Below, one piece after another: positions 46,184 to 61,862 of a DNA stretch of 64,000 nt. The DNA is from Selenomonas ruminantium subsp. ruminantium ATCC 12561 (GTDB lineage Bacteria; Bacillota; Negativicutes; Selenomonadales; Selenomonadaceae). The number at the start of each line of letters is the position of its first letter. The first letter of the stretch is position 1. Under the pieces are notes generated by a model. That model searched no databases. It worked only from the letters and a program-made list of their open reading frames with translations, and had not been told where the DNA came from. The stretch spans positions 1-64,000 of the forward strand of contig NZ_AUJE01000003.1 in assembly GCF_000424065.1 (NCBI RefSeq), in the 5' to 3' direction. The position numbers and the translations under genes are program-made.

Positions 46184-48133
46184 TCAGTCTTTTTTGTAAT
46201 ACCGGCACTCATAGCCATCTGCTCGAAGAATCAGCCCCGGTGCCCATGGCGGTGTGCGCCCCATTTTATCGCAGACTTCCTCCAAGGAGAACCCCTGCTC
46301 TGCCTCAATAATCAGTTCATCATGGACGTGCATGACGATTCGCGCATCACCAAGAGTCTGCATGGCATAGCAGAGCACATCTCTGGCCACCGCTTGGGTG
46401 ATATTCTCCACCAGTTTGCCTGCGAAAGTCTCGATGCGTTCCCACTTCTTGGCAGCACCAATGCCCATGTAAGTGACGGAATCGCTACCGAACCGATTCT
46501 CACCTATCCGTGGCTGCACATAGGATAAATGCCTGCCGCTCGGCAGTTCAATGAACAGCATGCCACTCCGGCAGACAAACTGTATGCCATGAGTTTCCGT
46601 AGTGGTTTTCTTCTTCACAGCCTCCTTGGCGGCCCTGTCCACATCCCACCAAAACTTCACGATATTAGGATTGGCCTCCCGCCATGCGTCAACCGATGGC
46701 TGAAGTTCATCTTCCTTCATGCCAGCCTCCAATGCTCCCATAGCCTTTAAGGCACCGACGGAGCCGCCATAGCCACAGGACAAAGTTGCCTGCTTTCCCT
46801 TTTGTCGAAGTTCACCGTTCTGGCCATGCTTTACCACTGGCACATGAAACATCTTTTCGGCACAGGCGCAGTAAATGTCACCGTTATTGGCAAAGACATC
46901 CAACACCCACTGTTCACCTGCCAACCATGCCAGAACACGACACTCGATAGCTGAAAAATCGGCCACTATGAATTTATAACCAGGTTTCGGCACAAAGGCT
47001 GTGCGGATAAGCTGGGAGAGCACATCCGGCACGGAATCATACAGAAGATGCAGGGCATCATAGTTTCCCCGCCTTACCAGCTGACGGGCTTCATCCAAAT
47101 CTAGCATACTGTTCCGAGCAAGATTTTGTAATTGCACCAGCCGCCCTGCGAACCTGCCACTGCGATTGGCTCCGTAAAATTGGAAAAGGCCACGTGCCCT
47201 GTCATCTGCTCCAGCCACATTGACCATGGCGGTGTATTTCTTGACGCTGGATTTAGAGAGTTGCTGCCGCAAGGCAAGCAGTTCATGTACCTGCCCCGTA
47301 GTCTCCTTAAGCAGGCGTTCCACCTCTGATTTTGCCAGTGAATCCACGGATATGCCGTTACTTGCCAACCATTCCTTGAGCTGGATTGGAGAGTTTGGAT
47401 TTTCCAATCCTGTGATGGCCTGTGCACGTTTAAGATTCTCCTCCGTACACTTCTGACTGATAGCTATGGCATTTCGCACCAAAGACATATCTACCAGAAT
47501 GCCACAGTCATTGATTTCCTGATCCTGATGGTATTCCCGCCAAACTGAGTCTGGCACAGGAAACTTGGCCAGCCGTTCCTTGATGGCAAGTTCCACTTCC
47601 ACATCACGCTGATTATATTTTTTGAACAGCTCCCACTTATCCGGGGCATCGGCGGGCAAGTTACGTTTGCGGCCACCATTGGTCTTGGTCGGCTTGCAGG
47701 GACAACAAAAGTAGCGGATAAGGTCTTGTCCTTCTGCCATTTTCTGCTGCTCCAAGCCCAGCACCGCACCTACTGACTTCAGCGACAGCGGCAGTCCCAT
47801 ATAGGCAGACCACACCATAGAACAATACCACGATGCCGGGTCTAGAAACTTCCCCTCTGCCAGCAAGCCCTTATCCTGCAGGAACCTGGCAATACAGGTA
47901 CGCTCAAAGGTACAGTTAAATGCCCATTTGGATGTTTCATCATCCAGTAGAGCCGACAGGATTTCCTGCGGTAATTCCTCTCCATGGGTGAAGTCCACCA
48001 CATGAACAGCACCGCCATCCACCGAATAGCCAAAGAGCAGGATTTCAAAATCCGGGCTTGCGGCGTATTTATACACCCCGGATTTTGATAAATCCACGCT
48101 GCTGAATGTTTCAATATCTATGCTTAAAACCAT
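46184..48133 (-). CDS. Family A DNA polymerase of phage type
   Basis: About 649 residues from the ATG at 48133 (AGGAGG six bases upstream). The exonuclease domain has SIDIETFSSVD, FNCTFERTCI and YNQRDVEVELA. The polymerase domain has motif A DFSAIECRVLAWLAG, motif B around RQKGKQATLSCGYGG, and motif C VMHVHDELI. It replicates the phage genome. Confidence 0.95.
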   Translation of the reverse strand: MVLSIDIETFSSVDLSKSGVYKYAASPDFEILLFGYSVDGGAVHVVDFTHGEELPQEILSALLDDETSKWAFNCTFERTCIARFLQDKGLLAEGKFLDPASWYCSMVWSAYMGLPLSLKSVGAVLGLEQQKMAEGQDLIRYFCCPCKPTKTNGGRKRNLPADAPDKWELFKKYNQRDVEVELAIKERLAKFPVPDSVWREYHQDQEINDCGILVDMSLVRNAIAISQKCTEENLKRAQAITGLENPNSPIQLKEWLASNGISVDSLAKSEVERLLKETTGQVHELLALRQQLSKSSVKKYTAMVNVAGADDRARGLFQFYGANRSGRFAGRLVQLQNLARNSMLDLDEARQLVRRGNYDALHLLYDSVPDVLSQLIRTAFVPKPGYKFIVADFSAIECRVLAWLAGEQWVLDVFANNGDIYCACAEKMFHVPVVKHGQNGELRQKGKQATLSCGYGGSVGALKAMGALEAGMKEDELQPSVDAWREANPNIVKFWWDVDRAAKEAVKKKTTTETHGIQFVCRSGMLFIELPSGRHLSYVQPRIGENRFGSDSVTYMGIGAAKKWERIETFAGKLVENITQAVARDVLCYAMQTLGDARIVMHVHDELIIEAEQGFSLEEVCDKMGRTPPWAPGLILRADGYECRYYKKD

Positions 48134-48196
48134 TTTGTGCCTCCTATGCAAAAGGCAGCGACCCTAAAGCCGCCGCCCTGCAAAACTTAATTACTT

Positions 48197-48748
48197 TTAG
48201 GACAGAAAGTCATCGTCTGCACCGTCCAAAGCGGTGAAATCATCCGTGGCACTGGTACGCCCGCCCAAAGGCTCACCATCCTTAACCTTCTGCAAATTAT
48301 TCAGCCCACAGGCAACGCCCTTGTTGCCGTTACTGTTGAAGGCATACAGAGAAATCGAGGCACGGACATAGCAGCCGCTATAAACCTCGTTCCTGTCCAG
48401 AATAGGACGCACGGCACGGTCGACAATCTGCGGAGCCGTTTTGCTATTGGCATTGATGAAGAAGGCATCCTTGTATGCCTCATCCTCACGCTCCGTATCC
48501 CCATCACGAAGAGGCAGTTTCAGTGCAGCTTTGTTTGGCTTCTTGCCGCCAAACTTGCCGATGCCCTCAGTGATAGCAGCCTCAACGGCCTCCTCAACAG
48601 CCTTTATGGTCTTCTTGTCGCTCTTAGGGATGATGAGCGATGCAGAATACTTCGGCTCCCCGCCATTGATACTGGCAGGCTCCCACACATGCTCATAGCT
48701 GAGACGAACGATACCGGTGATTACTTTTGTCTTAAGATTGTTAGCCAT
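48197..48748 (-). CDS. DUF2815 protein (ssDNA-binding-like)
   Basis: A 183-residue protein of DUF2815, a family of phage single-strand DNA-binding-like proteins. EPKYSASLIIPKSDKKTIKA and the strand VYSGCYVRASISLYAFNS, then the acidic tail DDFTALDGADDDFLS are typical. It overlaps the upstream nuclease gene by eight bases. Confidence 0.88.
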   Translation of the reverse strand: MANNLKTKVITGIVRLSYEHVWEPASINGGEPKYSASLIIPKSDKKTIKAVEEAVEAAITEGIGKFGGKKPNKAALKLPLRDGDTEREDEAYKDAFFINANSKTAPQIVDRAVRPILDRNEVYSGCYVRASISLYAFNSNGNKGVACGLNNLQKVKDGEPLGGRTSATDDFTALDGADDDFLS

Positions 48749-49877
48749 TTTCTTTTTCCTCCAAATTCGTAAACTCTGAAACTACATCTATTGCCGGACG
48801 CTTGTCGCTCTCTGGCACAAGTGTCGGCTTGCCTTGCGGCTTTATAATCAAACCGCCTAAGACCTCGTTGAATGTTGCCTTTCCCATCAGTTTTTCCATA
48901 CTGGTAAGGGTGATGAGTTTATGCTCGAAGATGTCCTTAAAGCCAGCAGATTTTGCGGCTTCAGCCACCTTTCCCTCATCAGCATATTTTCTGACGGAAC
49001 GACCTGCCACAAGTTTGTAGCCCGACCATTTCTTGCCATGGTTGACTGCTGACTCTAAAGCATAGGCAGAAATCGCATTAGCCCACTTGACCAGTTCCGG
49101 CAGTCGAGGCAGCAGGTCTGCTATCTCCTCATCTGTTAATAGTGGTGGCAGGCGAAACTCATCCTGCGCCACAGTCAGCTGGGCTTCGGCTCTTGCCCTG
49201 CAACGGGGAGATGCCCTACAGAACTGGCACCAGGCACCTGCCGCAAACTCGCCTTCACCTTTAAAGGCCATCTGTGCTCTGGGCTTTACCGTTTTCTCGG
49301 CCCAGGTCATAAGTTCATCAGCAGAGATAGACCAAGAAGTGGACACGTTCTCACGGCGAGGCTGGTAGATGGACATTCTGACCTTGGACACATCGTAGAG
49401 ACTGCCAAACATGGTCAGTGCTCCCAGTGCATAAAGCATCATCTGTGGATTCTGCTCAGCATCTACCAGCACCCCAAGACCATATTTGAAGTCAATGACG
49501 TGGAGAATGCCGTCACCTACAATAAGGCAATCTGCTGTACCAAAGGACTCTGGCACAAATTCTCTCAAGTCCAGTTTTTGCTCAATACACACCATGGCAT
49601 TGGGAATTTCCTGCATCTGCTCCACCACAAAAGCCACATAACCATCGGCGCAGTCCTCCATCTCATCGGAGTCAAAATCCGAATGAGGACGGCGGCTCCG
49701 GCGTTTCAGTGCCTTCTTTAACTTGTGCTCACAAAGAGCATGAGCCGCTGTGCCTTCTTCTGCCGCCTCCCCAGCAGAGTTAGGAAACTGTGTTTCAAGA
49801 CTTGCTGACGGTGTACAGTGGACAAGCCACCGTTCTGCCCCGGATGGAGACAATTTTGCATGTGCTCTTGCCGCCAT
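48741..49877 (-). CDS. DUF2800 protein (PD-(D/E)XK nuclease-like)
   Basis: About 378 residues. A Cas4/RecB-like phage nuclease family. The LSPSGAERWLVHCTPSASLE opening, the central LHVIDFKYGLGVLVDAEQNP with the D...K catalytic pair, and the cysteine cluster WCQFCRASPRCRARAEA near the end define it. The ATG at 49877 sits seven bases after GGAGGTG. Confidence 0.9.
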   Translation of the reverse strand: MAARAHAKLSPSGAERWLVHCTPSASLETQFPNSAGEAAEEGTAAHALCEHKLKKALKRRSRRPHSDFDSDEMEDCADGYVAFVVEQMQEIPNAMVCIEQKLDLREFVPESFGTADCLIVGDGILHVIDFKYGLGVLVDAEQNPQMMLYALGALTMFGSLYDVSKVRMSIYQPRRENVSTSWSISADELMTWAEKTVKPRAQMAFKGEGEFAAGAWCQFCRASPRCRARAEAQLTVAQDEFRLPPLLTDEEIADLLPRLPELVKWANAISAYALESAVNHGKKWSGYKLVAGRSVRKYADEGKVAEAAKSAGFKDIFEHKLITLTSMEKLMGKATFNEVLGGLIIKPQGKPTLVPESDKRPAIDVVSEFTNLEEKENG

Positions 49878-49878
49878 C

Positions 49879-50286
49879 TCAAAGCACCTCCGCTTTAGCC
49901 TTGAGGGCTGCATAATCCTTGGGATCTACTGCTGAAAGTTTTGCAGCACCAAAATCCTGCAAGAGCTTACGCACCTCGTCTGTGTGCCCAGCACTGCTTT
50001 TCTCTGCCAAAACTGCCCGGACTTCTTCCAGCATCACTTTGGGCTGAGCAGGCTTAACATCTTCTGTTGCCTTTGCGTCCGATACTGCCTGCTTATCACC
50101 AGCATCACGCAACAGATAAATCGCCAGCGTTTCCAGCCCCTCGGCCAGTTTGTGCATGCTGTCCACTACGCTTGCCAGCGTTTGCATTTCATCTTGCTTC
50201 ATCATTTGTACCTCCTCAAAATCTTCCTTGCGGCGTTTCTGGCTATAAGGCTGATAACCAGAAGACTTGGATTTTGCATTTCTCAT
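49879..50286 (-). CDS. Early-operon phage protein of unknown function
   Basis: About 135 residues if the ATG at 50286 is used; a shorter form from ATGs at 50205/50202 has the better ribosome site (GGAGG). The downstream part (DEMQTLASVVDSMHKLAEGL) is helical and reads like common small early phage proteins. No family recognised. It lies in the packed operon between the sigma-like and DUF2800 genes, with element C just upstream. Confidence 0.55.
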   Translation of the reverse strand: MRNAKSKSSGYQPYSQKRRKEDFEEVQMMKQDEMQTLASVVDSMHKLAEGLETLAIYLLRDAGDKQAVSDAKATEDVKPAQPKVMLEEVRAVLAEKSSAGHTDEVRKLLQDFGAAKLSAVDPKDYAALKAKAEVL

Positions 50287-50337: not shown

Positions 50338-50997
50338 TTATAAAAAACTTTCGAGGTGCTTTCGTAAAGGCGGCAAAACCTTGTCCATCCGCTTATGAAC
50401 ACTGGTCTTGGACTTAAATCCCAGCTCCTTGGCAATATCCCTTTCTGACATACCATTGGCCTTCATCAACAGTATTTTGAGGGCAGTGAGGGCAAGTTTA
50501 CCGACAGCCTTGTACATCTCCTCATAGGCTTTCTGCTTTGCTAAAGTATCTGCCACATCATCATCGGACAACAATTCCCTGCTATCCTTATCATCCAAAA
50601 AATTGAATGATTCTTTTAAATATGTCTGATGTAGGCACTTCTCGCAGTTCTGAGATTGACATAATTTTCTATTATTTTTATATAAACATTCCAGTTCACG
50701 TTTTGCACGGCGGTCTTCACGCCAGATGGGCCGCATTATCTTCATGTATTTTTCTGCATCCACGGGCACATAGATAGGCTTTCCTGCTACCTTGAGAAAC
50801 CTCTCGCCATTTTCGCGTCGGGTAATAAGCTCCTCTAAATTAGTGCTACGGCTTTCGCCGCCTTCGTGAATCAGGATTGCCTTGGGTACATAAGCTTCCA
50901 GGTTAGCGCAAAAAACAAATCTAAATCCGCGTTTCTGGAGAGCGTGAACCTCTTTACTGGTGTAGTCGTTAATTGTCGAATTGAGCAGAACTTTCAT
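50338..50997 (-). CDS. Sigma-like HTH regulator, first gene of the early operon
   Basis: About 219 residues from the ATG at 50997. A cysteine-bearing middle (KNNRKLCQSQNCEKC) is followed by a C-terminal helix-turn-helix (MSERDIAKELGFKSKTSVHKRMD) resembling sigma-70 region 4 or related activators. It is the first gene after the structured leader. The ribosome site GGAGG lies inside a predicted hairpin (CGTGTC...GACACG). Confidence 0.75.
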   Translation of the reverse strand: MKVLLNSTINDYTSKEVHALQKRGFRFVFCANLEAYVPKAILIHEGGESRSTNLEELITRRENGERFLKVAGKPIYVPVDAEKYMKIMRPIWREDRRAKRELECLYKNNRKLCQSQNCEKCLHQTYLKESFNFLDDKDSRELLSDDDVADTLAKQKAYEEMYKAVGKLALTALKILLMKANGMSERDIAKELGFKSKTSVHKRMDKVLPPLRKHLESFL

Positions 50998-50999
50998 TT

Positions 51000-51418
51000 T
51001 CGTGTCCTCCCTGCCTGAATCCGCAGGTGACACGAGATACAAAAGGGAGGCTACCCTGTTATATGTAGCCTCCCCGTGATGCCAAATTACGCACAGCGAT
51101 AAAGGCTACCCCATACCGATACTCGCTGTTGCCATAGCAACATTGGTTTTCGATATGTGTATCCTCGTGCCGTTATACGTAATCAGGCTCGATAATATTT
51201 TGTTCCTAAGTACCCCCGACAGACGGTGTACTCAAATCATCTGAGACGATGATATCACACTAAGAATTTCTACTCCTTGAACTCTGTTCAAGGACTGCCC
51301 CCATATGTATCAAGGGTTCTTAGCGCATCAAATCTGTTTCATCTCGGTGATACGACAATTTTCCCTTGAAGAAAGTTCAATAAAATATTTTCACGACGCT
51401 ACCTCCTTAAAAAAGCAC
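51000..51418 (-). ncRNA. Structured leader of the early operon with a predicted attenuator
   Basis: This 400-base gene-free stretch is dense in stems. Minus-strand segments GGGTAGCCT (plus 51103-51111), AGGCTAC (51065-51071) and GTAGCCTCCC (51045-51054) can pair as 1:2 or 2:3. The 2:3 hairpin (51045-51074) is followed by TTTTG, so 1:2 looks like an antiterminator. Other stems: CAGCGA/TCGCTG (51094-51128), GTTGC/GCAAC (51128-51141), CCTTGAAC/GTTCAAGG (about 51275-51293) inside CTAAGAA/TTCTTAG, and GTAC-CCG/CGG-GTAC near 51210-51232. No coding frame is convincing. A GTG after AAGGAGGT at about 51397 opens only five codons. Confidence 0.6.
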
Positions 51419-51427
51419 AAAAAAATA

Positions 51428-51460
51428 GACCGAAGATATTTGTACTAAATATCTTCGGTC
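51428..51460 (-). terminator. Terminator of the restriction-like operon
   Basis: A perfect 14-bp stem (GACCGAAGATATTT with its complement) around GTACT. On the minus strand it is followed by TATTTTTTTG. It lies 14 bases after the hsdR stop and separates the island from the prophage leader. Confidence 0.93.
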
Positions 51461-51474
51461 GTTACCTATGATAG

Positions 51475-54400
51475 TTATGTAGTTTTCTGTTTTGCCTGCT
51501 GTTTTTTCTTCTTATGCGGATTTTTTATAAGACTTTCCTTACCGTCTGCCTCGAGGTCTGTTACAATATCATCATAATCCGATGCCCATCGAATCGTTAG
51601 TAGCTGATTATAAATATTGTTATCCTGTGATTTTGTCGGATTTATGGATATGTTCGCCCGGTCTAAGAGTTCCGAACTGACGGGAAAGGGAACATGGATG
51701 CCCAAACACGCAGAAACCACATTCAAAGTATTAAGATTGCTCCCCTTTTGCATATTAGATATCGTCCGATTGTCGAGACCTGTAGTACTTCGCAGAAGCT
51801 CTGTGCTGCAACTGCAAATTCTGCGACTCATCAATTCTCTAAGCGAAGGACCAAAATCCAAGCGATAAATTTCATCAAGCATTCTTTCGCTTATCTCGCT
51901 TACCAAGCTATAATGTTTCAGAATATCGTCATTAATTTCGTCAACATAATGAAATGTTTTATCTGCCTGATCAGCCGGCAATTTTATATAATGAAGTTTC
52001 CCCTCATCATCCTCATAGAACTGCAAGAAGCATTTATCTTCGTTTTCTTCATCCTTTGCATAATCGGTAAGACGCCAATTTCCGTCTGGGTCTTTCTTGG
52101 CATATTTCTTATCAAATGGACAAACTCGACCTTCGATGCAAGCATATGCCCCCGATTTCATAAGTGCAGACAGGGCAGGACTTTCTTCACACCATTTAGC
52201 CAATTTTTTGGCTTTGACTTTTGTGGTTTTCTTTTTGTCATTTATATCGTCAGGTGGATTCGAGTCACTATCGTTGCCCGAAACTGATCCTTCACCTTCT
52301 GTAGAATTCTTTTCGCTACCATAAGGTGCAAAGTCCTCATGCACTTCATTATACCTGTCATAACCTTCGTTCAAAAGGAACATACGTAAATATTCATCGA
52401 TGTGCATTCTCAAATCTACTTCTTTGAGTTCAGTTCTTTCAACTCTGGTAAAAAACCGTCTTGCCTTGCCCAAATCAACAGATTTTACCAAATCCTCGAA
52501 CCTTCCGAAGTCATCAATTGTTGTTTCGGTGACTTTGCGATGCAGGAGGTCGCGGAGCTGCTCTTCATTACAGCCAAGCCTATGCACAACTCGTTTTATA
52601 CGATTGCTTTCCTCAGCTTCCTTATATAAACTGATGTAGTCACGAAAAGTCTTGTCCTCCGTTACTTTCACTTTTCCGTCCTGTATATCTTGAAGGAATA
52701 ATTTGGCATATTCCTGATCGTCACGCCCCAGCATGGCAAAGGATTTATGCAGGATTTTCAGCATCTTTTCCTTTTGCTCGGCGTCAGCACCATCATCCAT
52801 CACAATATGCAAGTATTTCTTGAAGCGTGTATTCATATAGTCGGTATCAATGGCATCTGTATTGATTTCCGTCAAATGCGTATCGATATCGAAGGGGACA
52901 TCGTCCTGTCTTCCGCCACCGCCGCCACTTACGAGTTCCTTGTATCGTCTGGCAAGGGTCAGATACTCCTCATGGGTAAAGGCAAGTACTATTGTCCGCT
53001 CATCCTTTAATTCGTCAAAAACATATTCATGCTGATCCCAGTGGAATCCTTGGATGGAGGCCGCCTCCAAATAGGTGTTGAATTCTGCGAACCATTTAGC
53101 GAATTTTTTGCAGTCGGACTTCTCCTGCGGCAACTCACCAAAATTCTGAACACCTGCAGCCTCAAACAATTCCAGAATATCCGCAAAGATGCGATTCATG
53201 TTTTCCAGATTGTCCGGCAATTTATCAACAAACAGTCCCTTGGGAATATTCCCGGAATAGGCTTCTACGGCTTCTTTAATATTGCGCTCCATAAGATGCG
53301 GTTTGCGGTAATAGCGAATCGTGCCGAATGGCTTGTCCGGGCCGAATAAGCGATTGGTTCTTGAAAATGCCTGTATCAGGTTTTCGTAGTCCATCACCTT
53401 ATCCATGTAAAGCGTATTAATCCATTTAGAATCATAGCCGGTAAGCATTTGATTGACTACAATCAAAATGTCAATCTGGTCTTTTCGCTCGATATGATTA
53501 TATGGTTTCTTATGTGCTAGACGAAGTTGCACATCTTCACGGAATTTATCGTAAGAAGGGATGGAAAACTCTACATCGAACATTTTCCTGTAGTCATCTA
53601 AAATTTCTACAATACCATCCTCTTTGTCCAGAGTTCCGCCACCTTCGTTGTCAATATTGGGATCGAAAACCGCCGTTATATTAAGTCCGGGGAGCATTTC
53701 CTTTGCCATACGATAATATTCTACCGCCTCTGGGATATTGCTGGTAGCAAAGATGGCGTGAAACTTCCCTGCCTGACTTAAAACCTCCCAGTTCCTGGCG
53801 ATATCCTCGAGAACTGCTCCCTTGTGTTCACGTCTCGTGTATTGAGCGTTTGGCACAAGTTCCTCAATACCTTTTATGTAGCGTGTGCCCCTTTGAAATC
53901 CCAGCATAGGCACTTCATTTCTGTTCATGTAGCGATAATATACTTTCGCTTTGCGTTTGTCCGCCAAAGCCTCCTCAACGGTATTTGCCTTTGCTTTGTA
54001 GAGTGCTACCGCTTTTCTTAAGTCAGAATCACGGTAGGTCATGACCATATATGGGTCAAATCCCAGTACATTTTTGTCCCGAATCCCATCGGCAAGAGTA
54101 TAGCGATGGATTTCATCGCCGAAAATTGTGGTGGTGGTATTGCCCTTCTTTTCGTTTACATCCTGAATCGGCGTGCCGGTAAAACCAAAAATAATGGCAT
54201 ACTTAAACGTGTCCTTGATGTTTGTGAGCATTTCGCCAAATGTGGAGCGATGGGCTTCATCGATGATAATGACGATTTTTTTGGCGACGATTTTATTAAG
54301 GTCAGCTGTTTTGATATTCTCGTTGTCCTTGGTGATGTTACTGAGTTTTTGTATGGATGTCACAATGAGCGAGTCATCCCGACTGTTGCTCTTCAGCTTG

Positions 54401-55473
54401 GCCATCAGGACAGTACCGTCCTCCGTGCCGTGAACAACCGTGCGGTTGCCGGAAAAATCATTGTAATCATCAAGAGCCTGTTTGCCGAGGGCGCGTCTGT
54501 CCACCAAAAAAATTACCTTGTCGGCATCATGGAAACTGTCAATGAGCTGCGCCGCCTTGAAGCTGGTGAGAGTCTTGCCTGAGCCGGTAGTATGCCAAAC
54601 ATATCCTCCCAAGGGATTCAGGTCGCGCCAGTCCTTGTGTTTTACCTTCTCTGCAATTTTGTCGGCGGCGTAATATTGGTAGCTGCGCATAACCTTTAGG
54701 GTATTGTCTTTTTCATCGGCTATGGTGTAAAAACCGATGAGCGTATGCGCCATGGGAATGTTTAGGAGTCTTGAGACCACATCCTTCCAATTGGTGAAGG
54801 CTATATTCTCCTCGTTCGCCCAATGAAAATAAAATGCCTTGTTGAATGGTGCATCGGGACCGGGATTGGCAAAATAGACAGTCTCATCCGGTGTCATGGC
54901 TACAAAAACCTGCACGAGAGAGAAAAGCCCGGTGAACACCCCCTCATGGGCATATTTCTCGATTTGATTATAAGCTTGGCTTACGGGGACATCGCTCCGC
55001 TTGAGTTCGATATGGATAACGGGCATACCGTTAATTAACAGCATAAGGTCGCCACGGCGGTCATTTAGGACAGGCGCGGTCTTGAATTTCGGCTGGCGGG
55101 CGATTTTATAGCTACTCTCCCCGTTGGCGATTTCATTGGGGTCATAAATTTTCAGGCTGACTTCTTTGCCATAGTGAAGTGTGTCATCAGGATTGTCCCG
55201 GCGAATGGACACACTTTTCCCGTTGATGAAGTCATTGAGCCTCCACGGAGTTCTTAAAGCGTATATCTGCTCCATAAGCTGCTGCATCTCGCTGTCCGTC
55301 AAAGGGCAGTCGTTCAGGCTGTCAATCTGGCGGTTGTTTTGGAAGAGAATATCCGCCCAATTTTTGATAAGTTCCTCCTCCGTTGGATATTCGATGATTC
55401 CCTGTTTCCAGCCTCGGTCAATGAGGAGGTTGATAACGGCATCCTCGAATTCCTTTTCCGTGCGAAAGGTCAT
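51475..55473 (-). CDS. hsdR: Type I restriction endonuclease subunit R with C-terminal HTH
   Basis: A 1332-residue motor subunit. The N-terminal nuclease has RRGDLMLLINGMPVIHIELK (D...ExK). Translocase motifs are HTTGSGKTLTSFKAAQLI, VIIIDEAHRSTFGEML and FGFTGTPI, and later QAFSRTNRLFG. Normal type I R subunits are around 1000-1100 residues; the extra C-terminus includes an XRE-like helix-turn-helix at about 1210-1270 (SLRELMSRR, TTGLDNRTISNMQKG) and a Lys-rich tail. GGAGG precedes the ATG by seven bases. It is the last gene of the operon. Confidence 0.92.
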   Translation of the reverse strand: MTFRTEKEFEDAVINLLIDRGWKQGIIEYPTEEELIKNWADILFQNNRQIDSLNDCPLTDSEMQQLMEQIYALRTPWRLNDFINGKSVSIRRDNPDDTLHYGKEVSLKIYDPNEIANGESSYKIARQPKFKTAPVLNDRRGDLMLLINGMPVIHIELKRSDVPVSQAYNQIEKYAHEGVFTGLFSLVQVFVAMTPDETVYFANPGPDAPFNKAFYFHWANEENIAFTNWKDVVSRLLNIPMAHTLIGFYTIADEKDNTLKVMRSYQYYAADKIAEKVKHKDWRDLNPLGGYVWHTTGSGKTLTSFKAAQLIDSFHDADKVIFLVDRRALGKQALDDYNDFSGNRTVVHGTEDGTVLMAKLKSNSRDDSLIVTSIQKLSNITKDNENIKTADLNKIVAKKIVIIIDEAHRSTFGEMLTNIKDTFKYAIIFGFTGTPIQDVNEKKGNTTTTIFGDEIHRYTLADGIRDKNVLGFDPYMVMTYRDSDLRKAVALYKAKANTVEEALADKRKAKVYYRYMNRNEVPMLGFQRGTRYIKGIEELVPNAQYTRREHKGAVLEDIARNWEVLSQAGKFHAIFATSNIPEAVEYYRMAKEMLPGLNITAVFDPNIDNEGGGTLDKEDGIVEILDDYRKMFDVEFSIPSYDKFREDVQLRLAHKKPYNHIERKDQIDILIVVNQMLTGYDSKWINTLYMDKVMDYENLIQAFSRTNRLFGPDKPFGTIRYYRKPHLMERNIKEAVEAYSGNIPKGLFVDKLPDNLENMNRIFADILELFEAAGVQNFGELPQEKSDCKKFAKWFAEFNTYLEAASIQGFHWDQHEYVFDELKDERTIVLAFTHEEYLTLARRYKELVSGGGGGRQDDVPFDIDTHLTEINTDAIDTDYMNTRFKKYLHIVMDDGADAEQKEKMLKILHKSFAMLGRDDQEYAKLFLQDIQDGKVKVTEDKTFRDYISLYKEAEESNRIKRVVHRLGCNEEQLRDLLHRKVTETTIDDFGRFEDLVKSVDLGKARRFFTRVERTELKEVDLRMHIDEYLRMFLLNEGYDRYNEVHEDFAPYGSEKNSTEGEGSVSGNDSDSNPPDDINDKKKTTKVKAKKLAKWCEESPALSALMKSGAYACIEGRVCPFDKKYAKKDPDGNWRLTDYAKDEENEDKCFLQFYEDDEGKLHYIKLPADQADKTFHYVDEINDDILKHYSLVSEISERMLDEIYRLDFGPSLRELMSRRICSCSTELLRSTTGLDNRTISNMQKGSNLNTLNVVSACLGIHVPFPVSSELLDRANISINPTKSQDNNIYNQLLTIRWASDYDDIVTDLEADGKESLIKNPHKKKKQQAKQKTT

Positions 55474-55485
55474 ATTGCCGCCTCC

Positions 55486-56703
55486 TTAAACAAACATTTT
55501 CTGTAGCAAAGCCGTTTTCATTTGCTGCAGTTTCGTGATTTTTTTCTCTTGGGTGTCGATGAGAATATCGAGGTTATCGAAATATTCTCCGATGGTTTTT
55601 TGTTCGTCATCTCCCGGTACATAAATTACCTGTTCTAAAAAATCATCTATATCAAGCTCGTTCATCATCGTACCTGTTTTAGTAGAATTTACTAAAATTT
55701 TTCTCATAATGGGTTCATGATGTATGTAATATTTCCAGAAGGAAATTGGAAATATTTTTTTAGGGCGCAATGCACTAAAACGGGGGGACATAATACCATC
55801 CCCTATGTCATTGAGGACAAACCTACCATATAAAAATTCTTTATTTGTATGTCCCTCAAAGGCTATATCACCTAATCGTAATATTTTGTATGTAGCAAGT
55901 GAATCTAAAGCCGCTCCATTTCCATCTTCTTTATAATTCATAGTTGCAACAGAAATTGTCTTATCAAAACCTATATTTTTGTTTACATTTCTCTCGTTGT
56001 TACATTCGTACAAATCCCCCAACTTTTTCTTCTCCCACTCTCCATCAAACCCCTCAAATCGAATCCGAGGAGTGCTCTCTCCCTTCTGTGGAAACATCTT
56101 TTGCAGGAGGGATTTTTTTAGGGCGAGGAGTTTGGTGTGGCGTTCTTGTTGGCATTTTATAACAGTATCTATCGAACTGATATAACTGCTAATTGCCAGT
56201 TGCTCATCATATTGTGGATGTATAAACTGTACCTGCTCCAGATCATCATTATGTAAATGTACAACAGTTTTACCATGTGCCATTTTTGCCATATCATCGT
56301 GAGCGTTCCCATAGGATATAACCAATGCTAAAAAAGCAGGATCGATATTTTTATTAGGAGATATGATGTTCAAATCTCCTCCTAATAAGATATCTGGATT
56401 TTTTACAACCGATGCTACCGATATATCTTCTGCCGATTCGCCAGAAGCGGGAACAATAACTTCCCCACCACGGCTACATACCGAATTTTTCTTAGGCACA
56501 GCAAATGTATCGACATCAGAAATAATAATTTCATGATTTGTATACATACGTCCATAGAGAATGATTGGATTACCTGCCGGGACTAAGTCTGCCTTTGAAT
56601 ATCCCTTTCCTTTTGAAAATGTTGCAATCTCTTTCAGCTCACAACTTTCCCACTCTCCCTCAAATCCCTCCAACCGAATCTCAGGGACTTTTTTCTTTTC
56701 CAT
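55486..56703 (-). CDS. hsdS: Type I restriction specificity subunit S
   Basis: About 405 residues with two target recognition domains. The half-repeats begin with PEIRLEGFEGEWESCELKEI and PRIRFEGFDGEWEKKKLGDL, and end with LLALKKSLLQKMFPQ and LQQMKTALLQKMF, the usual coiled spacers. The ATG at 56703 is two bases from the hsdM stop. The target sequence cannot be read from sequence. Confidence 0.93.
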   Translation of the reverse strand: MEKKKVPEIRLEGFEGEWESCELKEIATFSKGKGYSKADLVPAGNPIILYGRMYTNHEIIISDVDTFAVPKKNSVCSRGGEVIVPASGESAEDISVASVVKNPDILLGGDLNIISPNKNIDPAFLALVISYGNAHDDMAKMAHGKTVVHLHNDDLEQVQFIHPQYDEQLAISSYISSIDTVIKCQQERHTKLLALKKSLLQKMFPQKGESTPRIRFEGFDGEWEKKKLGDLYECNNERNVNKNIGFDKTISVATMNYKEDGNGAALDSLATYKILRLGDIAFEGHTNKEFLYGRFVLNDIGDGIMSPRFSALRPKKIFPISFWKYYIHHEPIMRKILVNSTKTGTMMNELDIDDFLEQVIYVPGDDEQKTIGEYFDNLDILIDTQEKKITKLQQMKTALLQKMFV

Positions 56704-56705
56704 TG

Positions 56706-59474
56706 TCATTCCTCCAAAAGCCGCTGAAATTCTTTCAATCCCGCCATATCGAACTCACTGCCCCGCAGTCCCTTGGTCATATCGGCGATGGTTTTCTCGG
56801 AAGATGTGCGCCGTTCTTCCACCTCAGCAAATGTCACCTTGTATTTTTCGATAATGGCGTTCATCTTCTCGATAAGTTCCCCTACAATGATGTCCGGCAT
56901 GGAGAGGATATCCGTCACCAAGGGAATAATCCACTTTTTTTCGAGCAGCATCTTGGCATCATCATCATCAAGATTTTCTATGGTTTCCTTGGTCTTCAGG
57001 TGCAATTCGTTCTTCATGGCGCGAATCTCAGTCTTAAGACTGGATTCCATATCTATGGCCTTTTGCACACGAAGCATCTTGTATTCAAAGCTGTCCTCCG
57101 GGAATTCATAGGCCAACTTGATGGAGTCGATACGGTTCAAGACTTCACGCTTGTTGTAAATGCCGCTTGCAGCCTTCGTCATGGCTTCCCAGTTGACGGC
57201 TGTCTTTTCTTCGATGTAGGCGAGCTTGTCCTTCTTTTTGCTGAGGGTGAGATACTCTACGAGAGCGCGGGTTTCTTCTGTTTCTACCTCCGAGAGGATT
57301 TCATCCACCACAGTCTTGACTTCCTTCGCTACAAAGGCTGTGTTGGCATCATTCAGGATAGCACCTCCTTTTTCCTCTTCGCTCATGTTTTCGAGAACTT
57401 CATCGTAAATCGCCGCCACATCAGCAAGTTCCGTTTCCTTGGCGCTGAGTGCTGCCAAATCCTCCGGCAAAAGTTCTCTCTGCACCAAATCAAAGGGGAG
57501 AATATGGCCACGCCAGCCTTTTTGTACCTCCACCTTTTCCCCTTCATTGTTTTGCTTCAGCACCATGTTGGGGTCAACCAGCATGACAGTTGAGAATCCT
57601 TCTGTCTGTATCATTTCAAGGTCAGTATGTATCATCTGCCAAGCATCGCTTAAAATCTGATAAACTCTGTACCGATCGATGGCTTTTACCCCTGCCAGCC
57701 GTCCGAAAATGTCATCGCAGATTTTACCTTCTTCATGTGCGAGTTCAATGCGCCGACCATTTTCAATCAGGTCAGTTTTAAGGCTATCCTGAAATCCAAA
57801 GAATTTATCTTTATAATCTGCTTTGTAATGTTGCACAGCTTCATGCGACAATGTCTGCACTCCGATATTCTCGCTTACGGGTTCGGCATACTGTTCGGAA
57901 ATATCGCGGAAGATGGATTCCCTAAGCCCCGGCAGAGCCTGCCAATAATCGTCGAGGATATCGAGTTCGCTTTTAGGGACGCCACCGAACATGATGGAAT
58001 GTACATCCCACTGCTCTGTCGGCTCTGCCGAAGACACATAGCGGGGAATATTCAGATTGTAGTCGTTGCCCTTGATTTCCTCCTTGGAAACACGACGGGA
58101 GAAACGAGGAATCTCGGCTCTGTCTTTTACGGTATCAACAATGCGTTTGATGTCCGATGCCCGCAGTCGATTATTTTTGTCGGCTTTTTCAAAGCCCTTG
58201 GAAGCATCAATGATGAGGACATCCGTTTCCTTGCGCTTGCGTTTCAGCACCATAATAATGGTGGCGATGCTTGTGCCGAAGAAAATGTTGGCTGGCAGAC
58301 CGATGATGGCATCAATGTTATTTTTCTCGATGAGATTGCGGCGGATTTCCCCTTCCTCATTTCCTCGAGTCAGCACGCCGTGGGGGAGGACGATGGCCAT
58401 AATGCCGTCTTCTTCCAGATGGTAAAGGTCATGAAGCAAAAAGGCAAAGTCTGCCTTGCCTTTGGGTGCAACACCATAACCAATAAAACGAGGATTGAGC
58501 TTTTTATCCTTGTTGTCCCACTTTTGGGAGTAAGGGGGATTGGACACCACGGCATCTACCCGTACCAGAGTATATTTGTCTGGGTCATCATCCTCAAAGA
58601 ACGGCCAGTCATCCTCCAGAGTATCGGCATTGCGCACGTTGATATTGCGTGGCTCGATACCCCGCATGACCAGATTCATGCGCGTAAGATTGTATGTGTT
58701 TTCCTTAAGTTCCTGTGCATAATACTGCACCTTATTGCTGTCCATGAACTTCGTTACGGAACTGCCAATATTTATAAGCAGCGATCCCGATCCTGATGTA
58801 GGATCATAGATACAAATTTCCCTTCTGCCGGATAAATGCCATGCCACAATCTCCGACATGAGAAGGGATACTTCATGGGGAGTATAGAACTCGCCCGCCT
58901 TCTTCCCGGCATTGGCGGCAAACATGCTGATGAGATACTCATATATAAAGCCCAGTACATCATAATCCTGCTTGCCGTCCATGGGAATTTTCTCTATTAG
59001 CTTCAGGAGTTTATTTATGGCTTTCGTCTGCGCAGTTGCGCTCTCACCAAGTTTAGACAGACCGGTCTGAAGAGTTTTGAATATATCCTTGAAAAGCTTT
59101 TTGTGGGATTTTCCAATAAGGCGGTCGAAGGCAGATAGTGCCTGCCGGACATTAGAAACATCAAAAGTAATTTTTTTCTTGCCTTCATAATCGTCCTTGT
59201 TTGCTCCAACCCAGGTGGAGAACAAATTCTCGTAGGCGATAAAATAGCCAAGATTACGCTGGGCATACTCCACCTGTTTCTTGTTAGACTCTGAAAGCGT
59301 CTCCATGTCCTCTTCGGACATACCTTTATCGGCAAAGAAACGCACTTCCTTGTCGGACAAGTATTTGTAGAAAATAAACCCCAAAATGAAATCCTTGTAT
59401 TCATTGGCTTCAATCTTGGAGCGCATCTGATTTGCTGACTCCCAGATAGTCGATGCCAATTGTTGCTTATTCAT
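56706..59474 (-). CDS. hsdM: Type I modification methyltransferase subunit M, long form
   Basis: A 922-residue N6-adenine methyltransferase. Motif X appears as EFYTPHEVSLLM (about 195), motif I as DPTSGSGSLL (about 224) and motif IV as NPPY (312-315). The N-terminal HsdM_N helical domain is intact. The long C-terminal third (from about 600) is helical and coiled-coil rich, including KKDKLAYIEEKTAVNWEA. It is about 350 residues longer than a classical HsdM; such long forms exist but are less common. It starts 45 bp after the 179-aa gene. Confidence 0.92.
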   Translation of the reverse strand: MNKQQLASTIWESANQMRSKIEANEYKDFILGFIFYKYLSDKEVRFFADKGMSEEDMETLSESNKKQVEYAQRNLGYFIAYENLFSTWVGANKDDYEGKKKITFDVSNVRQALSAFDRLIGKSHKKLFKDIFKTLQTGLSKLGESATAQTKAINKLLKLIEKIPMDGKQDYDVLGFIYEYLISMFAANAGKKAGEFYTPHEVSLLMSEIVAWHLSGRREICIYDPTSGSGSLLINIGSSVTKFMDSNKVQYYAQELKENTYNLTRMNLVMRGIEPRNINVRNADTLEDDWPFFEDDDPDKYTLVRVDAVVSNPPYSQKWDNKDKKLNPRFIGYGVAPKGKADFAFLLHDLYHLEEDGIMAIVLPHGVLTRGNEEGEIRRNLIEKNNIDAIIGLPANIFFGTSIATIIMVLKRKRKETDVLIIDASKGFEKADKNNRLRASDIKRIVDTVKDRAEIPRFSRRVSKEEIKGNDYNLNIPRYVSSAEPTEQWDVHSIMFGGVPKSELDILDDYWQALPGLRESIFRDISEQYAEPVSENIGVQTLSHEAVQHYKADYKDKFFGFQDSLKTDLIENGRRIELAHEEGKICDDIFGRLAGVKAIDRYRVYQILSDAWQMIHTDLEMIQTEGFSTVMLVDPNMVLKQNNEGEKVEVQKGWRGHILPFDLVQRELLPEDLAALSAKETELADVAAIYDEVLENMSEEEKGGAILNDANTAFVAKEVKTVVDEILSEVETEETRALVEYLTLSKKKDKLAYIEEKTAVNWEAMTKAASGIYNKREVLNRIDSIKLAYEFPEDSFEYKMLRVQKAIDMESSLKTEIRAMKNELHLKTKETIENLDDDDAKMLLEKKWIIPLVTDILSMPDIIVGELIEKMNAIIEKYKVTFAEVEERRTSSEKTIADMTKGLRGSEFDMAGLKEFQRLLEE

Positions 59475-59519
59475 AAATCAATTCTCCTCTGCTCTATTTT
59501 GTTGCTCTTGTCTATCTTC

Positions 59520-60059
59520 TCACCCAACAGCCAAATATCCGGAAGCCACCGCCTCCCGGATGGCTTCCTTGATATTGCTTTTGGTCATCTTCAATTGCCC
59601 ATTACTGGTTAATCTGACGATTTTAGTAAAACCTTCCTCTTGCTCCATCATGGAGATAACACTAGAGTGTTCCCCCTTATCTTTGGTGGAATGTGGCATA
59701 GGACCGACCAAAATCAACCGATAATCACTATTATACCGCAATTTCCCAAAATCGAAATGCTTTAATTCACTATATTCTATATGTAGCTCCACCCTGTCTT
59801 TGGATATCCCCTGACTGGCCACAGAAGCCAGTATTTCCCTATCCTTGATGGCAGCTTCCCCAAAGATAATAATCTTGCCATTTTGCATGGCCTCATCCCA
59901 TGCAGGAGCTTTTTTATTCGGAGCCAGGTTGTTAAGACCAATCTGGTGCAGATACTCATCCAATCGGTCTTCCTTCCAAGCATTTTCTAGATTCTGATAG
60001 ATGCTCATCTGCACGGCCTCAACCAGCTCACTAAATTCGGTTTCAGACACCAAGGTCAA
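59520..60059 (-). CDS. Unknown 179-aa protein of the restriction-like operon
   Basis: The TTG at 60059 overlaps the previous stop by four bases (TTGA) and lies four bases after GGAGG; another TTG at 60053 is possible. The fold looks alpha/beta: GKIIIFGEAAIKDREILASV, then KLRYNSDYRLILVGPMPHST and FTKIVRLTSNGQLKMTKSN. The central LILVGPMPHS block looks conserved enough to be functional. I know no family for it. It sits between a methylase-like fusion and HsdM, so a role in assembling, tuning or arming the type I complex is likely. Signs of nuclease or protease activity are not evident. Confidence 0.72.
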   Translation of the reverse strand: MTLVSETEFSELVEAVQMSIYQNLENAWKEDRLDEYLHQIGLNNLAPNKKAPAWDEAMQNGKIIIFGEAAIKDREILASVASQGISKDRVELHIEYSELKHFDFGKLRYNSDYRLILVGPMPHSTKDKGEHSSVISMMEQEEGFTKIVRLTSNGQLKMTKSNIKEAIREAVASGYLAVG

Positions 60060-61825
60060 TCCGCCTCCTCCAGGATGCATGCCAACTGAAGTTCCAATTC
60101 CTGCGTCTGACGCTTCAATACCGATAAATGACGGCGAATGGAAGTATATTTCTCCACAACCTTCATCTGCTCATCCATCGGTATCACAGGTATCTTTACC
60201 TGTAACAAGTCCTTACGGGAGATTATCTTAATCGTGCTCCCCTTAGACAAATATTCTATCTGCTTGGCCCCTTCGCGGCTTTTCAAATAGCACATTACAT
60301 ATATAGGATGCACCATTTTCTCATCTAGTTGCATAAAATACATATTGCCATTAGCCAGCACCTTCTTGCCCTGCAAAGGAGGAACAATACCTATCTTCAT
60401 CGGTGCACTTCTAGAAATTACCAAGTTACCCTCAGTCACGCAAAATCTTTCCCACGACTCTTCCATTTCAGCTAAATATGGCAATGGCATGCGAACAGCA
60501 TCATCTTCTACGTCTTTTAACATCAGATACTGGAAGTTCGTTTCATCCTTGGTTGCTAATTTTTCCAGCTTAGATGCCGGAATTGCCTGTCCGCGTTCCA
60601 GTAATAGCACCAAATCTCCCAGTGCTACTCCATTTTCCACTTCTGCCACAGCATTGGACAAATAACCTACAGGACTTAAATCATATTCTTGTTCAGCAAT
60701 TTCCTTGGGTTCCACATCGCGACTATGTTCTGTTGCTCCGTTTACCCGACGTAGAACTTCCAATATATTATCCTTAGTCATTTCGCTTGTGTAGCGTTCT
60801 TTTACCTTGCAATCTCGTGCATCTACCATTCTTACAGTAGTATTCCCCTGGCTAAATACAAGCATATCACACTGCACGCCTGTATTTGGCATAATTCCGT
60901 CTGGCAAAGCTATTACTGACTCCAGGAGTCCGCTATCAATCAAATAACGTCGAATGTCTTGCTCGCCTCTCGATGCACGGAACAGCAGACTATCATATGT
61001 AAGCACCACAGTCCGTCCACCAGAATTCTGCTTTTCCAGTGCAGATAATGCAAACGCCCAATCCATTCTTCTGGTTCTTGGAAGTCTCTCATAAATCTTA
61101 GCCAGTTCAGCATCTTGGGGACGCCAATGGTAAGCATTTGTCTCTCTCATGGCCATAGGTGGATCTGCATATATTTTATCCGCGCTCAAATCATCAAGCA
61201 GACTATCCCCCTGCTTCACGCTGATAGCTTCGTCCATGAAGGCCGCACGAATTTTACTGACAATTACTGCATCTGTGGAGATTTCTGTGCCATACACTGC
61301 TTTTGCCTTAGTATTCAAATAAGCTCCGATAGCAAAATCACCAAAACCAAAGCAATAATCCATTACAGATTCACCGGGCTTGACCTGTAGCAACTCTCTG
61401 CCTATATGAGCGAACGCTTCTGGTGTCGCCACACTTCCACTTCTTTTCCCCATACTTCTAAAATACCATGATAAGTTGCCAAATATTAAAGACAGTAGCT
61501 GCTCTTCACTACATTTGTATGCAAGCGTTTCTGCCTCTGTGTAGAATTCATCAAGCACGGAGTTAAGCTTCAGGCCAACAGAATAGTCCATCTCAGTTTC
61601 CCGTAACACATCGTATAATCTTTCCCGGCTCACACCCCCAATTCTCTTGTATATGTATGCTAAAGTCACCAACGACATAAATTTCGCTAGATTAGGTTCT
61701 GATTTGCTGCGCAGCAAATTCATCCCTTCCCATGCCAGCTCATAAGATACTGACTCACGCAACTTACGAATATCATCCTTGGAAAGGGTCGGAAAGAACA
61801 CAGGTTTTGCAGTTTTAACAGCCAC
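60056..61825 (-). CDS. Atypical N6-methylase fused to an S-like target domain
   Basis: About 589 residues from the GTG at 61825, nine bases after GGAGG. The first 145 residues are helical and end in a motif-X-like VATPEAFAHIGREL. Motif I is changed to VMDYCFGFGDFAIG, and motif IV reads ADPPM instead of NPPY/F. The C-terminal 200 residues resemble one HsdS target domain (LGDLVLLLERGQAIPA, ISRKDLLQVKIPVIPMDEQM and a helical end). So this is an M-S fusion whose catalytic site is in doubt. It opens the operon and may guide, regulate or replace the HsdM-HsdS activity. Confidence 0.8.
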   Translation of the reverse strand: MAVKTAKPVFFPTLSKDDIRKLRESVSYELAWEGMNLLRSKSEPNLAKFMSLVTLAYIYKRIGGVSRERLYDVLRETEMDYSVGLKLNSVLDEFYTEAETLAYKCSEEQLLSLIFGNLSWYFRSMGKRSGSVATPEAFAHIGRELLQVKPGESVMDYCFGFGDFAIGAYLNTKAKAVYGTEISTDAVIVSKIRAAFMDEAISVKQGDSLLDDLSADKIYADPPMAMRETNAYHWRPQDAELAKIYERLPRTRRMDWAFALSALEKQNSGGRTVVLTYDSLLFRASRGEQDIRRYLIDSGLLESVIALPDGIMPNTGVQCDMLVFSQGNTTVRMVDARDCKVKERYTSEMTKDNILEVLRRVNGATEHSRDVEPKEIAEQEYDLSPVGYLSNAVAEVENGVALGDLVLLLERGQAIPASKLEKLATKDETNFQYLMLKDVEDDAVRMPLPYLAEMEESWERFCVTEGNLVISRSAPMKIGIVPPLQGKKVLANGNMYFMQLDEKMVHPIYVMCYLKSREGAKQIEYLSKGSTIKIISRKDLLQVKIPVIPMDEQMKVVEKYTSIRRHLSVLKRQTQELELQLACILEEAD

Positions 61826-61848
61826 AACAAAGCACCTCCGTACATCAT

Positions 61849-61862
61849 GGTTATACATAACT
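61849..61862. promoter_or_regulatory. Operator-like palindrome, proximal
   Basis: GGTTATACATAACT, an imperfect palindrome about 10-25 bases downstream of the predicted transcription start and just before the GTG start of the methylase-like fusion. Confidence 0.7.

Follow-up and report, generated by a model that had tools for sequence, protein, structure and literature searches.

A conserved leader RNA with a candidate attenuator at the head of the replication operon of a Selenomonas prophage

Background

Classical transcription attenuators and the expression platforms of riboswitches work through a 5' leader in which the antiterminator and terminator pairings exclude each other and a U-run follows the terminator. 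A further group of RNAs, comprising put of phage HK022, EAR of the Bacillus eps operon and canT of Tn916, consists of structured RNAs located early in an operon with terminators downstream. EAR resides in a host operon, whereas put and canT are found in a phage and a mobile element. Among these, canT is a cis-acting, processive antiterminator RNA of a Gram-positive mobile element (PMC11658703).

To our knowledge, the start of the lytic programme has not been worked out in the Ca. Heliusviridae. These are temperate phages, detected in the gut of more than 90% of the participants of one study; the text of that paper contains no mention of "non-coding", "untranslated" or "RNA structure" (PMC9226167). 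The leader RNA described here heads the replication operon of a prophage of this kind. It has the exclusive pairings and U-run of the attenuators and riboswitches but differs from them in that its presumed sensing domain falls outside the families of Rfam 15 and it is without a conserved leader peptide. Like put, EAR and canT it is a structured RNA early in an operon; whereas those RNAs act processively on RNA polymerase, it is instead complementary to its own terminator.

Results and discussion

Locus and operon

The window, that is the whole stretch of DNA analysed, comprises 64,000 nucleotides of Selenomonas ruminantium subsp. ruminantium ATCC 12561 (NZ_AUJE01000003.1). The prophage within it has nine of the nine Ca. 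Heliusviridae core genes (DUF2800, DUF2815, PolA, VRR-NUC, SNF2, TerL, portal, Clp protease and capsid), an assignment made by family models, not by a tree, with the core-gene list taken from PMC9226167. The leader region lies on the minus strand, which is the direction of the operon. The latter opens with a sigma-like gene of 219 amino acids (50338-50997) possessing a C-terminal sigma-70 region-4-like HTH, followed by genes for DUF2800 (48741-49913), the DUF2815/ssDNA-binding protein (PF10991; 48197-48748) and a family A DNA polymerase (46184-48151), an antirepressor gene and further replication genes.

Upstream, on the same strand, is a type I restriction operon of hsdM, hsdS and hsdR (59474-51475). 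It ends in a strong intrinsic terminator (51428-51460) made up of a 14-pair stem followed by TATTTTTTTG; the leader transcript must therefore start downstream of this site. Between the hsdR terminator and the first gene there are approximately 430 untranslated bases.

Folding of the leader

A preliminary description of this DNA had proposed a dense RNA leader carrying a three-segment attenuator. The minus strand of the whole leader region folds at -150.2 kcal/mol (z = -6.27), which is better than 100 of 100 dinucleotide shuffles. The plus strand also scores highly (z = -5.48), as palindromic DNA would lead one to expect. The three segments were located exactly as given, on the minus strand: segment 2, GGTAGCCT, at 51110-51103; segment 3, AGGCTAC, at 51071-51065; and segment 4, GTAGCCTCCC, at 51054-51045, followed by TTTTG. 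Segment 3 is contained in GGGAGGCTAC, the 5' arm of a terminator, T2 (51045-51074, -19.9 kcal/mol), which consists of GGGAGGCTAC, a loop and GTAGCCTCCC and is completed by its T-run (TTTTG, 51044-51041). A terminator hairpin with a U-run is thus present upstream of the first gene (51074-51041). The pairings 2:3 and 3:4 are mutually exclusive in the window leader.

The ribosome site of the first gene had also been placed in a hairpin, and indeed its GGAGG (51010-51006) is enclosed by a Shine-Dalgarno hairpin at 51001-51034 on the minus strand. The same arrangement occurs in relatives, in which both T2-type terminators and the ribosome-site hairpin recur.

Compared column by column with the two closest relatives, L002 and L014, the 5' part of the leader (51189-51375, minus strand) is about 91% identical. 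The perfect stems earlier described in the upstream 300 bases are present, but two among them look operator-like rather than like RNA. These are the inverted repeats TTGAA-N5-TTCAAG (copy 1, 51365-51380) and CTTGAA-N5-TTCAAG (copy 2, 51276-51292), the latter with its half-sites kept in L002 and L014 and one intervening base different. A sequence scan for TTGAA-N5-TTCAAG returned two copies in 64 kb, both in the leader and 88 bp apart. They are probably the operators of a phage repressor. A Peptoclostridium plasmid (L123) has a similar repeat (TTGAACTTTATTCAA) ahead of its element. In clostridial members (L043, L054, L062, L065 and others) the hairpin is instead preceded by one to three copies of a motif, AAACCGTCAGATTT..CTCCCRWGGCTACCWGATAGGAG.

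A candidate promoter (TTAAGG, 17 nt, TATTTT; 51382-51410, minus strand) was picked by eye with low confidence; it is largely kept in L002 and L014 and fell below the threshold in a scan for consensus promoters. At the start of the leader a perfect Shine-Dalgarno sequence, AAGGAGG, precedes a five-codon ORF, GTG AAA ATA TTT TAT TGA (51394-51377, GTG at 51394-51392). Its frame differs in the two closest relatives. The frames MPDYV*/MPDLQ*, from leaders of the A and D types, were rejected as leader peptides, as was an ORF of 18 codons in L002 and L014; they are not conserved in the window or elsewhere. The earlier statement that the leader has no convincing coding frame agrees with the finding of no conserved frame in it.

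A conserved core hairpin

The core of the RNA family is a 108-nt hairpin (51081-51188, minus strand), defined by covariance models R1 and R2 and by pair counts. It has the form of a single long hairpin with helices P1 (51188-51183/51086-51081), P2 (about 51178-51170/51099-51091), P3 and P4 and a variable tip. In the window P3 joins GG-A-TAC (51164-51159) with GTA-G-CC (51109-51104), segment 2 contributing its 3' strand. Across the family P3 takes the form GG-A-TAC/GTA-N-CC, in which the bulged A is constant.

Model R1, constructed from eight foreign sequences and excluding the window, recovered the window element with 48.0 bits (E 3.3e-10). In alignment A7 (37 distinct sequences), which was fitted to the structure, 94.8% of the cells in paired positions are paired, compared with 87.0% after shuffling. 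Changes on both sides occur in 15 of the 27 pairs, and the cells showing them number 73, against 22.5 in shuffled alignments (reached by 0 of 500 shuffles) and at most 12 in slid controls. The covariation thus exceeds that of both controls, and at the level of sequence comparison the leader hairpin is shown to be a conserved RNA structure. Since many members were found by way of the conserved 5' strand, the apparent invariance of that strand partly reflects how members were picked. Some divergent members came up although they do not match it exactly, namely L068, L069, L076 and L172 (from the models) and phi1605 (from blastn), and in these both strands change together.

Could these be chance hairpins, or repeats acting only as DNA, such as operators or replication sites? 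The two upstream TTGAA-N5-TTCAAG repeats do look like operators. Against this reading are the covariation, the constant orientation of the element towards the next gene, and the strand specificity of the R2 scores (56.1 bits on the minus strand, 20.4 on the plus strand); we regard it as highly improbable.

The operon had suggested a kinship with the Rfam DUF2800 and DUF2815 motifs, which are tied by name to these phage gene families. This possibility was not borne out. At the gathering threshold no Rfam 15 model matches the window or 16 relatives, barring group II introns elsewhere in L123, and at E <= 10 the leader gave three unrelated matches, the best with E 1.6. The DUF2800, DUF2815, ROOL and GOLLD models, for which a covariance search had been proposed, do not match the leader, and it was rejected as an RNA of any of these four kinds; the same search gave no match pointing to EAR (epsC). 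The alternative offered at the time, an undescribed relative, fared better: the leader element is an RNA family without a listing in Rfam 15 and undescribed in the open-access literature.

Alternative pairing of segment 2 with the terminator

In most members the terminator follows the 3' strand of P3 by about 35 bases, and this strand finds its complement in the terminator's 5' arm and loop. The sequences of the two partners vary together: GTAGCCT/AGGCTAC in the window, and AGAAGTAC/GTACTTCT, GAGATAC/GTATCTC, GAGATG/CATCTTC, GTCGG/CCGAC and ATATGCG/CGCATAT in relatives. Among 21 representatives the mean duplex energy is -13.1 kcal/mol with the own terminator and -8.6 with swapped terminators (0 of 20,000 permutations), and the ungapped score is 18.3 as opposed to 13.6 (again 0 of 20,000). 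The 5' strand of the hairpin, used as control, scored 12.7 with its own terminator and 11.8 with swapped ones. For the window the own pairing ranked 17 of 21 with a fixed slice and 2 with a wider slice. Members found by the models only also show the complementarity (L172, GCGACGATG/CATCGTCGC; L174, TGGAGT/ACTCCA). Compensatory changes in relatives thus maintain the complementarity of segment 2 to the terminator, which supports the proposed three-segment attenuator; judged by these changes, this is shown to be a conserved alternative pairing, one that excludes the terminator. A B-type subset (e.g. L015, L040, L042) is without a separate T2 and has its U-run directly after P1.

The terminated fold is the more stable in 20 of the 20 cases tested, the antiterminated fold costing between 0.7 and 29 kcal/mol (23.4 in the window). 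So large a gap would suit a static insulator, in which the terminators and a closed ribosome site block read-through from flanking host or restriction-modification genes and no switching takes place. The conservation of the terminators and of the ribosome-site hairpin is in keeping with this, and Tn916 employs a terminator as an insulator (PMC11658703). An insulator would, however, need neither the conserved 100-nt domain nor a complementarity, kept by compensation, that links the terminator loop to a distant strand. In addition, the gap between T2 and the first gene is approximately 45 nt and is occupied by the ribosome-site hairpin, which leaves little room for a promoter. We consider an insulator unlikely.

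The same complementarity bears on processive antitermination of the put, EAR or canT kind, by which the hairpin would bind RNA polymerase and carry it past T2 and further terminators. The position at the start of an early operon, the terminator just downstream and a stable hairpin with conserved internal loops would all fit, and canT provides a known cis-acting precedent in Gram-positive mobile elements (PMC11658703). With this mode of action one would expect sense-strand terminators to be enriched downstream. Over 237 kb downstream of the elements, though, 26 sense and 32 antisense intrinsic terminators were counted, with no excess on the sense strand. The co-varying complementarity to the terminator would also be left unexplained, and the canT region of a Tn916-like locus (L038) contains neither the motif nor a match to R1. 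Processive antitermination, which these data do not support, appears rather unlikely.

First genes of the operons

The first gene of the window matches Pfam Sigma70_r4_2 below the gathering threshold (E 0.0016) and phrog_13787 (5.6e-18), to which phrog assigns no function. Sigma70_r4_2 was detected at E <= 0.05 in 33 of the 39 first genes of the RNA family, and the element is shown to be positioned in front of first genes that, from their predicted domains, are sigma-like. The N-terminal parts of these genes differ widely.

Perhaps the hairpin is a binding site for the sigma-like first protein, or for some other protein of the phage, which would in this way control its own operon. The recurrence of the region-4-like domain speaks for such an autogenous leader, although the N-terminal parts are so unlike. 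On the other hand, the leaders of the window and L014 share about 90% identity as far as the start codon and precede different first genes, from which it follows that the RNA travels as a module. The first gene of the window has 13-26% identity to those of relatives while the core sequence of the RNA is constant. A leader that is retained in front of changing proteins argues against feedback of this sort, and we hold an autogenous leader to be quite unlikely.

Proposed mechanism

The reading that we favour, and think probable, is that the leader is a default-off transcription attenuator combined with a lock on the ribosome site, together gating the phage replication operon. Off is taken as the default in view of the greater stability of the terminated fold, by the 23.4 kcal/mol given above for the window; we infer that antitermination proceeds through the 2:3 pairing in response to a signal acting in trans. 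The start of transcription would fall between 51428 and about 51375. As the RNA emerges, P1 to P4 would fold first and so hide segment 2, whereupon segments 3 and 4 would form T2 and RNA polymerase would stop. If the upper half of the hairpin were prevented from forming, or opened, segment 2 could pair with segment 3, T2 would not form and the operon would be transcribed. The trigger could be a protein of the phage or of the host, a ligand or an altered speed of RNA polymerase, and would act on the 5' strand, which is conserved, and on the motif GG-A-TAC with its bulged A. Because of the gap of 23 kcal/mol in the window, a strong trigger or kinetic control would be needed. The ribosome-site hairpin would add a translational layer.

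A role of the leader as a lysis-lysogeny or timing switch, as earlier suggested, is plausible in view of its location in front of the replication genes. This strongly covarying RNA offers a concrete control point for the Ca. Heliusviridae. The family has the character of an "orphan riboswitch", with a conserved sensor domain and a conserved expression platform. More tentatively, the aptamer-like hairpin with its invariant bulged-A motif might represent a new class of gene-control RNA that senses one common signal across phages of Clostridia, Negativicutes and Erysipelotrichia, gates the replication operon and sets the onset of prophage replication. On this reading, the RNA would do so in a temperate phage group that is among the most prevalent in the human gut.

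Relatives and distribution

A DNA search of 150 related genomes revealed a leader 87% identical in G040 and a conserved stretch of 37 bases in Selenomonas sp. AE3005, of the same genus. Phage contigs bearing the same hairpin were then found through the sequence CCTGATTACGTATAA within this stretch. Broader patterns extended the set to further phage contigs and to 28 stretches of bacterial DNA, almost all of them from Clostridia, and R1 added a further subtype (GATTTGCAATAAGGGC) in 37 viral contigs. Blastn of the window leader against phages and plasmids, and a protein search of viral contigs with the first gene, returned nothing. Most 15-mer matches, as well as loci L033, L035, L036, L044, L058, L169 and L173, were rejected as chance matches.

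The element occurs in many related phages of gut and rumen. Its range takes in phages of the Ca. Heliusvirales as well as prophages of Clostridia, Negativicutes and Erysipelothrix. Named carriers include Oscillospiraceae phages (listed under Ca. Heliusvirales), Erysipelothrix phage phi1605 and the Peptoclostridium plasmid. At E <= 0.001 R2 matched 7 of 200 genomes of the class of the window and 11 of 291 of the Clostridia-type class, counts which include chance matches (by inspection, at least two of the weakest, L169 and L173). A clear match was present in 2 of the 41 viral contigs with a DUF2800 relative. The element is therefore not universal in such phages, and other phages of this kind use something else.

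Loci L125, L126 and L127 have DUF2800 proteins 90-94% identical, are probably Selenomonas phages and carry a diverged leader. Their P3 reads GG-A-TAC/GTA-G-CC (L125, L127) or GG-A-CAC/GTG-CC (L126), with a U-run right after P2. R2 matched L125 and L126 weakly (E 0.8 and 0.2, left out of the counts), and these two look like a divergent Selenomonas-phage version of the element.

Several loci show disrupted elements. In L045, L046, L059 and L067 the element breaks off within the hairpin or immediately behind it and gives way to foreign sequence, which by eye is an IS3-type transposase in L046 and a serine recombinase in L059; the junctions are either chimeric contigs or real insertions. At 316-655 of L002 there is a leader remnant without terminator and ribosome-site hairpin, beside IS200/IS605-like hairpins and followed by a gene that by eye is DUF4417-like. 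L174 (G004:C2:246054 onward) has a good element, and its first gene reads in frame into DXS/transketolase-like sequence, either an assembly chimera or a real fusion.

The leader comes right after restriction genes in the window, L014, phi1605, NatCom_21982 and NatCom_43819. Restriction-modification genes were seen directly upstream in the window (51475-61858), L014, L121, L122 and L124, as if this slot were one for cargo.
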